Positions 2,368 to 29,504 of a stretch of DNA of 37,049 bases are shown here, one piece after another (position 1 is the stretch's first letter; each line of letters opens with the position of its first letter). The translations under genes were made by a program, and so were the position numbers. The stretch lies in the IMG/VR virus record IMGVR_UViG_3300042350_002848, positions 1-37,049 of that record. One strand, given 5' to 3'. Below the pieces are notes generated by a model that was not told where the DNA came from, made no database searches, and saw nothing but the letters and a program-made list of their open reading frames with translations. The stretch is from a virus.

Positions 2368-2607
2368 ATGGCGGCTGACAATCCGTTTCTCGACGTCGAT
2401 GCGGCGACCCTTGGCGTGCTCAAGACCAAGGTGCTTGACGCGATCCAAGCCTGCCTGCTCAACACGTCGTACTCGCTCAACGGCAAGTCGGTCACGCGCG
2501 CCGATCTTAACACGCTCAACCGGATGCTAGGCGATATCGTGGACGCGATCGAGTATCAGAACGGCAACACGACGGACACGACTTTTGTCAGCTTCACCGG
2601 CAACTAA
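2368..2607 (+). CDS. gpW-like head-completion protein (putative)
   Basis: Small 79-aa protein between terminase and portal, the place where lambda carries gpW, which closes the filled head and forms the tail attachment surface. The sequence is mostly helical with a polar C-terminus, in the size range of gpW-like proteins (about 70-80 aa). I see no diagnostic motif beyond size, position and a helix-turn pattern (TRADLNTLNRMLGDIVDAIE). The start at ATG 2368 follows a hairpin and the TTTGACGG motif by 13 nt; longer in-frame starts would run into the TerL gene. It is followed 1 nt later by the portal ATG. The role is inferred mainly from order. Confidence 0.55.
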   Translation: MAADNPFLDVDAATLGVLKTKVLDAIQACLLNTSYSLNGKSVTRADLNTLNRMLGDIVDAIEYQNGNTTDTTFVSFTGN

Positions 2608-2608
2608 G

Positions 2609-4906
2609 ATGCACACCTTCGACCCGGCCAAAGTTATCGCGCAGCGTCCGTGGTTCGAGCGCGCGCTCGAGGTCGTCGCTCCCGGCACCGCGCTGCGTCG
2701 GATGCAGGCGCGGGTCGAGGCCGCGCTGTTCTCCTACAACGCCGCGCAGACGAACCGGCTTTACGCGCCGATGCAGTACGGCCAGCCGAGCGAGTCCTCG
2801 CAGACGGTGCGGGAGCGGGTCGTGATGATGTGGGAAAGTCGTAACCTCGTGGAGAATTGCCCCGAGGTTAAGGAGATCAGCCGCAAGTTCGGCAACTACC
2901 TCACGCCGACCGAGTACTCGCCGAGCACGGGCGACCGCGATTACAACCGGCTCGTCAGCGAGTACTTCCACGACTGGTGCAAGGGCGCCGACGCGACCGG
3001 CCGCAACTCGTTCCGCAAGCTGGTGCAGGTGGCCGCGGAGAACCGGCCGGTCGACGGCGACTGCGGCTTCGTGATTCGCCGCGTGGGCGAGGGGCTCAAG
3101 GTGCAGCTGATTCCGGCGACCCGCATCGGCAATCCCAACGACCAAGGCGGCAACTCCGAGAACTACTTCGAGGGCGTGATCGTCGATGACTTCGGTGTGC
3201 CTGTCGCCTACCGGATCTACCGCGTGACGCGCGAAGGCGTTTACTTCGGAGCCGAGGACGTTCCGGCGGGCAACTTCTGCCACTACTTCGACCCGTTCCG
3301 CGTCGACCAGTACCGCGGCGTTACCGACTTCCACGCAGCGATTCAGACGGCGCGGATGCTGCACGAAATCCTGCAAGCCGAGAAGGCGGGCGTGCGGTTC
3401 GCCTCGCAGCAGGCGGCGCTTGTCTTCACCGACCGCGGCACGGCGAACGCGCGCAACCTGTTCACGCCGACGCCGAGCGCGACGCTGCCGAACGGACAGC
3501 AGCCGAAGAACGAGTTGAGCGAGGTCGGGATGATCAAGTACCTCGGCCAAGCGGACCGCGTGGAGACGATGCCCGCGCGCCCGAGCACGGCCTTCACGGG
3601 CTTCGTCGAGCATCTGATGCACGAGCTCGCGATTGCCGTCGGCATCCCGCAGGGCGTGCTTTTCGGTACGCAGAACTACAAGGGACCGAGCGTGCGCGCA
3701 GAGTTTGCCGCGGCGGATCGCGTATTCGCCCGCCATCAGGGCGTGCTCACCGACAAGGTGCTCGACCCGATCAAGAACGCGGTGATCCTCGACGGCATCG
3801 CCCGCGGCGAGATCCCGGCGCCTGCGACGCAGGACGGCGAGACTCCGGTGCAGGCGCTCAAGCGCGCGACCCGCGGCGAGTGGCGCTTCCCGCCCAAGCT
3901 CTCAATCGATGTTGGCCGCGACTCCGCGGCGAACTTGAACGAAAATCGGCAGGGCGCGAAGTCCTTGCAGGAGATCGCGGCCGAGCAGGGCACCGACGCC
4001 TTCACGCGCCTCGAGCAGATCGCGGCGGAAGCCGCGTACGTGGGCGAGCTCGCGGAGAAGTACGGCATCCCCGAGACCTCGATCCGCCTCGTCACCAATT
4101 CGCTGCCTTCGACTCCGGCTGCTGCCGCTGCCGCTGGTGAGATGGTCGGGGAATCCTCGGCCGATGCACAGGCCGCTTCGAGTGGGACGCCCGAGGACTC
4201 GGAACCCGACCAGCCCGCGACGCCTTCGGAGCTCGCGCGCTTTGCCGCCATCGACTTGACGCCTACCGACGCGATGGCCGCGGAGGCGCGCCGCGGGCTG
4301 GAGTGGCGCGACAAGCACAACCGCGGCGGCACGGCCGTGGGCGTTGCTCGCGCTCGCGACATCAGCAACAAGAAGTCGCTATCGCCCGACACCGTGCGCC
4401 GTATGGTCTCGTACTTCGCGCGGCACGAGGTGGACAAGCAGGGGACCGGATTCTCGCCGGGCGAAGACGGCTACCCGTCCGCGGGTCGGATCGCGTGGGC
4501 GCTCTGGGGCGGCGACGCCGGGCAAAGCTGGGCAAAGGCCAAGGCCGCGCAGATGGAGCGCGAGGAGTTGAGCCGCCCGGCGACCGTGCGCGAGGCGCTC
4601 GAGGTCGGGCGCAATCGCGCGAAGAAGCCGCTCGAGAAGCTGGCCGAGAAGGCGAGCAAGCTATCCGCAGTCCGCGAGAAGCTGGGCCAGAACGCGAGAT
4701 CAGAGGCGCAGATCGAGCAGGCGCTCAAGCGCATCGGGTTTGAGCCGAAGCCGGCCGCGCCCGTGCCTGCGCCCGCGCCCGTCGTCTCGCTCTCGGACGC
4801 CCGCAAGATGCTATCTGAGCGGACCGACTCCGAGGATAAGCTGTCCTCGCTCCTTGCTAGCGTCGCGGATCGTCGCGCGAAGATCAACGCCTCCCGCAAA
4901 TCCTGA
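2609..4906 (+). CDS. Portal protein (lambda gpB-like) with C-terminal extension
   Basis: Forms the dodecameric portal at the capsid vertex through which DNA passes (765 aa from ATG 2609; typical lambda-family portals have about 500-530). Residues about 1-490 have the lambda-portal layout, with early segments such as RNLVENCPEVKEISRKFGNY and a later IPQGVLFGTQNYKGPSVRAE. After an Ala/Ser/Pro-rich linker (about 505-535) comes an extra domain at about 540-660 (ARRGLEWRDKHNRGGTAVGV ... SPGEDGYPSAGRIAWALWGG). I remember similar segments in other phage proteins, with no known function. The last 100 residues are charged and helical with a Pro/Ala hinge. The fusion makes this portal unusually long. 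Upstream is the gpW-like protein; downstream is a fibre gene instead of the usual protease. Confidence 0.9.
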   Translation: MHTFDPAKVIAQRPWFERALEVVAPGTALRRMQARVEAALFSYNAAQTNRLYAPMQYGQPSESSQTVRERVVMMWESRNLVENCPEVKEISRKFGNYLTPTEYSPSTGDRDYNRLVSEYFHDWCKGADATGRNSFRKLVQVAAENRPVDGDCGFVIRRVGEGLKVQLIPATRIGNPNDQGGNSENYFEGVIVDDFGVPVAYRIYRVTREGVYFGAEDVPAGNFCHYFDPFRVDQYRGVTDFHAAIQTARMLHEILQAEKAGVRFASQQAALVFTDRGTANARNLFTPTPSATLPNGQQPKNELSEVGMIKYLGQADRVETMPARPSTAFTGFVEHLMHELAIAVGIPQGVLFGTQNYKGPSVRAEFAAADRVFARHQGVLTDKVLDPIKNAVILDGIARGEIPAPATQDGETPVQALKRATRGEWRFPPKLSIDVGRDSAANLNENRQGAKSLQEIAAEQGTDAFTRLEQIAAEAAYVGELAEKYGIPETSIRLVTNSLPSTPAAAAAAGEMVGESSADAQAASSGTPEDSEPDQPATPSELARFAAIDLTPTDAMAAEARRGLEWRDKHNRGGTAVGVARARDISNKKSLSPDTVRRMVSYFARHEVDKQGTGFSPGEDGYPSAGRIAWALWGGDAGQSWAKAKAAQMEREELSRPATVREALEVGRNRAKKPLEKLAEKASKLSAVREKLGQNARSEAQIEQALKRIGFEPKPAAPVPAPAPVVSLSDARKMLSERTDSEDKLSSLLASVADRRAKINASRKS

Positions 4907-28292: not shown

Positions 28293-28483
28293 CTACCGAC
28301 CTTCGCTCTGACCTCGACACCGCGCTGCGCGAGGGCCAGACGCCCAAGGAGTTTGCGGCCAAGGCGGGCATCTCCGTCTCGTGGACTTACCGGCTCTCGT
28401 GGGAGCTCGGCTGGCGCGCGATGCACCTGTCCGAGGGCGAGCGGCGGCTGATCAAGCAGCTTAGAGCTCAACGCCATTCCTAA
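28289..28483 (+). CDS. Small HTH DNA-binding protein
   Basis: A 64-aa protein with a helix-turn-helix in residues about 16-40 (GQTPKEFAAKAGISVSWTYR) and a basic C-terminal helix (GERRLIKQLRAQRHS). Possibly a transcriptional regulator. The GTG start at 28289 overlaps the endolysin stop, with ribosome site GGAGGTG embedded in the endolysin codons. Its stop TAA (28481-28483) overlaps ATG 28483, the start of the frame that overlaps the methyltransferase. Confidence 0.7.
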   Translation: MTTDLRSDLDTALREGQTPKEFAAKAGISVSWTYRLSWELGWRAMHLSEGERRLIKQLRAQRHS

Positions 28484-29487
28484 TGTGGATACTCCCGCAA
28501 TCACTCACCTGTCGCTTTGCTCCGGGTTCGGAGGCATTGACCTCGGACTGCGGCGATGCATCCCGAGCCTGCGAACAATCGCTTATGCGGAGATCGAGGC
28601 CTTCGCGTGCGAGCTCCTTCTCGCGCGAATGGAGGGCGGGCAACTTGACCCGGCTCCGATCTGGACTGATCTCAAATCATTCCCTTGGGCAAAGTTTTGC
28701 GGATTGGTGGACATCCTCTCTGGCGGCTACCCGTGCCAGCCATTCTCCACCGCTGGCAAGCGACTCGGAGGCGAAGATCCGCGACACCTCTGGCCGTTTA
28801 TCTCAAGCGGCATTCGACTTCTTCAACCTAGAATCTGCCTCTTTGAAAACGTCGACGGGCACATTACCCAAGGCCTGCATCACGTCTTGTCTGACTTGGG
28901 AGGACTGGGTTACAGAACAACGTGGGGAGTTTTCTCAGCGGCTGAGTGCGGCGCGCCTCATCAGCGGAAGCGAGTCTTTATCTTGGCCCACCGCGACGAC
29001 TACCGAGGCGAAATCGGACACGCTGCAAGATCGTGCGGCGCGAGGCAAACAAGTGATGCTCTGTCACGCGGTGCGGCAATGGCCGACGCCAACGGCGAAC
29101 GAGGACAAAGATCAGAACGCCAGCTGGGAGACGCTTGCCAAGCTGGACAAGGGCGGGCGCATCCTGCGAAGGATCGCTACGCTTGCGACTGGCCCAGCCG
29201 ACCCGGAGAGCCGCAATTTGGATGGGAGCCGCCAAGGGTCGTGGGCGACGCCCGAGGCCAAGAATCAAGTGGGCTATCAAGTGGGCGCGGACGGGAGGAA
29301 ATGGCCGCGACTAGGCAGTCAGGTCAGCGGCAAGCTCAACCCTCGGTGGGTCGAGACGCTGATGGGCCTGCCAGTCGGATGGACTATGCCAAGTTGCGAG
29401 TCGCCTGCGACAATCGCACCGACGAGCTGCGGCTTCTCGGCAATGGAGTCGTGCCAGCAACAGCCGAGCTCGCCTTCCGCACCTTGA
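28483..29487 (+). CDS. Overprinted frame within the methyltransferase gene
   Basis: A 334-aa frame from ATG 28483 overlapping almost the whole methyltransferase in another phase. It carries features I associate with a recurrent phage protein type: LKTSTGTLP after a Ser-rich region, repeated WPT-type units (LSWPTATTT near 166, QWPTPTANED near 200, SWATPEAKNQ near 253) and a final LNPRWVETLMGLPVGWT near 284-300. Over 29041-29400, my hand count gives 74% GC at third positions for this frame against 54% for the methyltransferase frame, so codon bias favours this one in the 3' half. In 28485-28904 the two are about equal (62% and 64%). The ATG forms TAATG with the previous stop, a normal coupling. 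It could be a real second product; function unknown. Long shadow frames are common here, so length alone proves nothing. Confidence 0.5.
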   Translation: MWILPQSLTCRFAPGSEALTSDCGDASRACEQSLMRRSRPSRASSFSREWRAGNLTRLRSGLISNHSLGQSFADWWTSSLAATRASHSPPLASDSEAKIRDTSGRLSQAAFDFFNLESASLKTSTGTLPKACITSCLTWEDWVTEQRGEFSQRLSAARLISGSESLSWPTATTTEAKSDTLQDRAARGKQVMLCHAVRQWPTPTANEDKDQNASWETLAKLDKGGRILRRIATLATGPADPESRNLDGSRQGSWATPEAKNQVGYQVGADGRKWPRLGSQVSGKLNPRWVETLMGLPVGWTMPSCESPATIAPTSCGFSAMESCQQQPSSPSAP

Positions 29488-29504
29488 GCGCGCGCCTGCA
29501 ATGA
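28485..29504 (+). CDS. DNA cytosine-5 methyltransferase
   Basis: A 339-aa C5 methyltransferase (GTG start inside ATGTG). Motif I is LCSGFGGIDLG (11-21), motif IV GYPCQPFS with catalytic C84, motif VI FENV (E121), motif VIII QRKRV (160-164), and motifs IX-X end with LLGNGVVPATAELAF near 317-332. The target-recognition region (about 170-300) is low-complexity and its third positions are A/T-richer than elsewhere in the phage. It would methylate cytosines in a short recognition site, probably to protect phage DNA from host restriction; no matching restriction enzyme is seen. The gene is fully overlapped by a 334-aa frame two bases upstream. Confidence 0.93.
   Translation: MDTPAITHLSLCSGFGGIDLGLRRCIPSLRTIAYAEIEAFACELLLARMEGGQLDPAPIWTDLKSFPWAKFCGLVDILSGGYPCQPFSTAGKRLGGEDPRHLWPFISSGIRLLQPRICLFENVDGHITQGLHHVLSDLGGLGYRTTWGVFSAAECGAPHQRKRVFILAHRDDYRGEIGHAARSCGARQTSDALSRGAAMADANGERGQRSERQLGDACQAGQGRAHPAKDRYACDWPSRPGEPQFGWEPPRVVGDARGQESSGLSSGRGREEMAATRQSGQRQAQPSVGRDADGPASRMDYAKLRVACDNRTDELRLLGNGVVPATAELAFRTLSARLQ

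Follow-up and report, generated by a model that had tools for sequence, protein, structure and literature searches.

In C5-cytosine methyltransferases, motifs I-VIII and X belong to a large domain, and a small domain holds the target-recognition domain (TRD) and motif IX (PMC3404938). The assembly of such enzymes from split parts has strong precedents, both natural (M.AquI, M.EcoHK31I) and artificial (PMC3404938, PMC5944983). In M.AquI, the catalytic part is one polypeptide, and the distal variable region together with motif IX is another. In M.EcoHK31I, the larger subunit carries motifs I-VIII and X and the smaller subunit carries motif IX, with the predicted TRD assigned to the larger subunit, alpha (PMC3404938). 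Here we analysed a 37,049-nucleotide stretch of viral DNA (IMG/VR record IMGVR_UViG_3300042350_002848, called the window below), in which a methyltransferase frame (alpha) and a second frame (beta) are open over the same region. The small subunit of M.EcoHK31I, 176 aa long, was reportedly placed by Lee et al. in 1995 inside the large-subunit gene in another frame, and we take M.EaeI to be a two-polypeptide C5 methyltransferase of the same kind.

As in M.EcoHK31I, motifs I-VIII and X of the window system are found in alpha and motif IX in the second polypeptide, and, as reported for the M.EcoHK31I gene, the second polypeptide lies within the alpha gene, in its +1 frame. Judged by this motif layout and in-gene coding, the window system is probably of the M.EcoHK31I type. 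Unlike the M.EcoHK31I small subunit, however, the window beta has 334 aa and extends from two bases ahead of the alpha start over almost the whole of alpha; its W-x-T-P repeats put most of the recognition region in beta; and the family is broadly distributed in phages and prophages, with monomer, split and nested relatives. The window shares with M.AquI the separation of the catalytic part and the motif IX part into two polypeptides, but it keeps motif X in alpha, whereas the M.AquI beta also carries motif X, and it is thus not of the M.AquI type.

The alpha ORF occupies positions 28485-29504 on the + strand, with a GTG start and 339 aa. The beta ORF occupies positions 28483-29487 on the + strand, with an ATG start and 334 open codons in alpha's +1 frame. 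The two overlap by 1003 nt on the same strand, and the coordinates and the starts two bases apart are exactly as the initial annotation gave them. The following features were located along the locus:

28483..28487, + strand: overlapping start codons ATGTG (beta ATG, alpha GTG), from the ORF coordinates
28722..28748, + strand: alpha motif IV (GGYPCQPFS, catalytic Cys84), from the sequence; invariant in 80 relatives
28897..28971, + strand: beta conserved helix WEDWVTEQRGEFSQRLSAARLISG, opposite alpha motifs VII-VIII, from AlphaFold and the frozen alpha codons
28962..28973, + strand: alpha motif VIII (QRKR), from the sequence; R161 and R163 invariant in 80 relatives
28984..28995, + strand: beta W-P-T-A repeat element; W168 nearly invariant in 75 betas
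29080..29091, + strand: beta W-P-T-P repeat element, from the sequence; one relative (L046) codes the same repeats without overlap
29190..29237, + strand: alpha-frame conserved segment WPSRPGEPQFGWEPPR, from the consensus of 80 alphas
29242..29253, + strand: beta W-A-T-P repeat element; W254 and T256 nearly invariant
29335..29385, + strand: beta motif IX LNPRWVETLMGLPVGWT, in the +1 frame of alpha VGRDADGPASRMD, from beta identity and codon periodicity
29433..29456, + strand: alpha motif X (LLGNGVVP); G319 and N320 invariant, pLDDT 94-97

Upstream of this locus lies a gene for a J-like tail protein and downstream lie RecT-like and exonuclease VIII-like genes, which identifies the source as a tailed phage. 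No clear Shine-Dalgarno sequence was visible before ATG 28483. GC at third codon positions was 89/120 for the beta frame and 64/119 for the alpha frame over 29041-29400, and 86/139 and 89/140, respectively, over 28485-28904; these values differ from the earlier hand counts by at most one codon.

Pfam and PHROGs searches with alpha matched DNA_methylase (7.2e-32, residues 7-176) and phrog_363 (1.4e-56). The protein shows the C5 methyltransferase motifs I, IV (PCQ), VI (ENV), VIII (QxRxR) and X (GN) and the catalytic-domain fold, and is by sequence and predicted fold a C5-cytosine methyltransferase. Beta had no significant match in Pfam. Among the PHROGs it matched phrog_1008, annotated as a phage 'DNA methyltransferase' (1.8e-16), as did all 75 beta relatives tested. 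Its final segment NPRWVETLMGLPVGWT, which the initial annotation linked to annotated phage proteins, is real and represents motif IX of a C5 methyltransferase. Alpha has motifs I-VIII and X, and beta has the W-x-T-P repeats and motif IX.

In the AlphaFold model of alpha, residues from about 1 to 170 had pLDDT values mostly above 90 and residues 311-338 (the motif X helices) values of 94-97, and residues 183-236 and 252-310 fell below 50. The model thus predicts a confident catalytic core with motif X and disorder where the small domain normally sits. A Foldseek search using this model gave the large domain of M.HhaI as the best match (172 columns, 1.8e-14). With neither motif IX nor a folded target-recognition domain in its chain, alpha alone does not qualify as a complete monomer. 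The beta model was poor overall (mean pLDDT 56.5, pTM 0.22) and confident only at helix 139-163, with pLDDT about 93 in block 141-150, and at the motif IX end, which would fit a chain that takes up its fold on a partner. PDB sequence searches using beta and a beta profile matched no solved structure. One conserved island, WPSRPGxxQxxWEPPR, lies inside the otherwise disordered overlap region of alpha, and in two split relatives (L156 and L165) alpha stops just past it. This segment may form the contact with beta.

Taken by itself, the open +1 frame of the window is unremarkable and says little: it has no stops where synonymous shuffling predicts 1.8, and 12% of the shuffles did equally well. 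We permuted synonymous codons within each gene of 98 distinct relatives of about 29-76% identity. Their +1 frames contained 32 stops against 452 expected, whereas their +2 frames, used as a control, contained 1362 against 1423 expected. Much of the 32 sits in long non-homologous extensions of three relatives (L080, L044 and L037). The set combined loci found with alpha (L008-L085) and with beta (L086-L123), and the +1 frame was equally open in both. In most relatives, beta is open across nearly all of alpha, and the longest +2 stretch is usually below 130 codons; the beta frame stays open down to 30-35% identity.

Which frame dominates varies along the gene. Alpha's conservation pattern prevails in its residues 1-180 and 305-339. 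At alpha residues 286-304, identity is 0.744 for beta (null 0.214) and 0.426 for alpha, and nucleotide identity at alpha codon positions 1, 2 and 3 is 0.48, 0.78 and 0.82. By identity and codon periodicity, beta is the main coding frame around motif IX. In L046, beta continues about 340 bases beyond alpha's stop with three more W-x-T-P repeats, and alpha's frame is full of stops there.

We then examined the alpha codons opposite conserved beta residues. Because choosing relatives by beta's motif IX would be circular near that motif, the test used 131 distinct relatives retrieved solely by alpha queries, with each gene's own codon use as the expectation. Around motif IX, alpha Gly294 was GGG in 121/122 relatives (20.3 expected), which fixes beta Gly295; Gly289 was GGT in 100/100 (11.9 expected), fixing beta Val290; and Asp293 was GAT in 90/90 (35.7 expected), fixing beta Met294. 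Opposite the beta helix, Ala152 was GCG in 130/131 (24.6 expected), Gly142 was GGT in 120/125 (14.1 expected) and Leu138 was xTG in 117/130 (48.5 expected), fixing beta Arg153, Val143 and Trp139, respectively. Conserved alpha residues opposite variable beta positions used their codons freely, and E121, R100, R161, R163 and G91 showed no codon excess in the same alpha-selected relatives. The same freezing was found in 93 relatives below 75% identity, including the N-terminal half of beta, where alpha A33 was GCT in 68/71 (11.2 expected) and E36 was GAG in 85/92 (30.4 expected). By region, these 93 relatives showed the strongest freezing at residues 284-304 (mean z 14.4), clear freezing at 1-75 (5.9 and 6.7) and the weakest at 305-339 (2.8); these z values overstate independence, as codons are shared by descent, but the contrast between sites within one gene is unaffected.

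Both frames are under protein-coding (purifying) selection. The initial annotation had proposed that a second protein is encoded here and had named stop codons in relatives and missing synonymous constraint as observations that would speak against it; we looked for both, and the proposal withstood the test, being supported by the openness and the frozen alpha codons. Its reservation that the protein-like look might be a by-product of methylase conservation is excluded for the motif IX region and for many codons elsewhere.

Related genes from phages and prophages, considerably more than a hundred in all, have the same nested layout, and gene finders usually call only one of the two frames. We sorted 242 distinct motif IX sites, counting a layout as fully nested when motif IX lies in the +1 frame of motif IV, both frames are open and motif X lies in alpha's frame. 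The full layout was present at 219 sites, and motif X lay in beta's frame at 4. The only site with motif IX in the same frame (L120) and the only one in the +2 frame (L121) proved to be local frame breaks and were rejected as other architectures. Among 132 alpha-selected genes, motif IX was in the +1 frame in 110, in no frame in 22 and in alpha's own frame in none. Two of the 22, L064 and L044, carry HNH insertions. In L064 (positions 2499-3245) the HNH domain lies in the beta frame with the alpha frame open, replaces the TRD and motif IX, and matches Pfam HNH at 3.5e-4, slightly under the curated cut-off; the HNH domain of L044 likewise lies in the beta frame with alpha open. Both resemble the 'hidden HNH' insertion in the methylase of phage ShiLan (PMC11855218).

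Beta starts at -2 relative to alpha in 78 of 182 distinct relatives and at -5 in 32. Both starts lie within 20 nt of each other in at most 163/182, an upper figure because our start picker favours nearby codons, which does not explain the -2 peak. In 43/182, beta must start internally because the +1 frame has a stop within the first 75 codons. The overlap of the previous gene's TAA with the beta ATG, described earlier as a coupling, is true of the window but does not rise above background across relatives: 114 beta starts lie 2-8 nt upstream of alpha, and 18 of them have TAATG/TGATG and 22 have ATGA, near the backgrounds of 12% and 27%. Conserved translational coupling through stop-start overlap was therefore dropped. 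Betas of the 182 relatives carry between 0 and 6 [WLFY]-x-T-P repeats, a variation that possibly reflects modular target recognition.

Two annotated phage loci have the same +1 nesting as the window, Escherichia phage K1G ORF31/ORF30 ('Mte8-like') and Paenibacillus phage Diva gp49/gp50 ('g49 internal gene'). The beta profile matched K1G ORF30 (6.2e-21) and Diva gp50 (1.7e-38), and their partners matched the alpha profile. Unlike the window beta, these betas have internal starts, 88 and 184 nt downstream of the alpha start, respectively. Their records annotate the nested ORFs without function or explanation, and in the literature searched, mostly outside subscription journals, we found no paper describing the phage overlap. 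Synechococcus phages Ssp-JY39 and Yong-M2-251 have 100% identical DNA over 2,241 bases, and the shared gene is annotated as the beta 'hypothetical protein' in the former and as the alpha methyltransferase in the latter.

In the split forms (RemusLoopin gp34/35, Mundrea gp78/77, L156 and L165), alpha stops past motif VIII or WEPPR, leaving motifs IX and X to beta; motif X was found in the second polypeptide, as in M.AquI, in RemusLoopin, L156 and L165. A single chain holds the order I-VIII, repeat TRD, IX and X in Mycobacterium phage ShiLan gp70 and in prophiGD91-2 gp27. In these monomers the repeats are LPTP, all motifs share one frame and the +1 frame is broken by stops. With Z set to 10,000, the beta profile matched the repeat-motif IX part of ShiLan gp70 at 1.1e-8 and of prophiGD91-2 gp27 at 1.8e-8, and by this comparison beta is homologous to the matching part of monomeric methylases. 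The +1 frame of ShiLan gp70 (L366, positions 1789-2958) can still be read as beta-like over one stretch (SETWPPSGMTRSGAAFELP...LLPTPVTQ), after which the repeats continue in frame 0, as though frameshifts converted monomeric into overlapping forms and back.

We propose that the locus is very probably a dual-coded gene for a two-subunit C5-cytosine methyltransferase, with catalysis predicted for alpha and target recognition for beta. Ribosomes starting at GTG 28485 would produce alpha, a large domain for catalysis that bears motifs I-VIII and X and in which only a disordered linker would hold the place of the small domain. Ribosomes starting at ATG 28483 would produce beta in the +1 frame, with its W-x-T-P-rich target-recognition region and motif IX, and beta would supply the small domain that alpha lacks. 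Both starts would be used on one mRNA, and alpha and beta would assemble into one active enzyme that methylates the phage DNA and probably protects it from host restriction, the usual role of phage methyltransferases. Target recognition may be shared by alpha and beta, because the predicted TRD of M.EcoHK31I is in alpha and the WPSRPG-containing segment is conserved here. The missing-subunit explanation is new here; no function of beta had been proposed in the initial annotation.

A different reading is that beta is genuine but functionally apart from the enzyme: a small product of its own, perhaps anti-restriction or regulatory, overprinted on the methyltransferase gene. In favour are the length of beta, its separate start codon, an N-terminal half without homologues of known function, and the position of part of beta over conserved catalytic motifs. 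However, the best conserved part of beta is the very C5 methyltransferase motif IX that is absent from alpha, beta shares homology with the TRD-IX part that the monomers encode in frame, and the split forms place motif X in beta too, so we consider a separate function improbable. A ribosomal +1 frameshift past motif VIII could instead yield an alpha-beta fusion with motifs I-VIII, TRD and IX. This would suit the +1 position of beta and the fused order I-VIII-TRD-IX of the mycobacteriophage monomers, but such a fusion would lack motif X unless the ribosome shifted back, and it would need neither the start of beta near that of alpha in most relatives nor the coding constraint on beta's N-terminal half. 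Frameshifting is thus very unlikely.

That the +1 frame is a by-product of methyltransferase conservation and codon bias would agree with its unremarkable openness in the window alone. It is refuted by the codon shuffles, the frozen codons, the beta periodicity at motif IX and the L046 repeats outside the overlap, and its probability is negligible. A two-subunit methyltransferase encoded in both frames remains our preferred reading.

A broader interpretation is possible but somewhat doubtful: that phages widely share an enzyme family whose two domains are overprinted along the whole of one DNA segment, that adjacent or overlapping starts (ATGTG) set the ratio of catalytic to target-reading subunits, and that varying numbers of W-x-T-P modules in the overprinted frame change target specificity while the catalytic frame is preserved. 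At this locus two frames of the same strand overlap for about 1 kb, both show evidence of purifying selection, and the arrangement is repeated in phages and prophages from many hosts. Database entries divide it in conflicting ways, as with the identical Synechococcus phage DNA, and a phage methyltransferase that is cloned or assayed without its beta may mistakenly be recorded as inactive. 'Hypothetical' W-x-T-P proteins gain a testable function, and the monomer, split and nested forms provide a natural series for studying the origins of overlapping genes.
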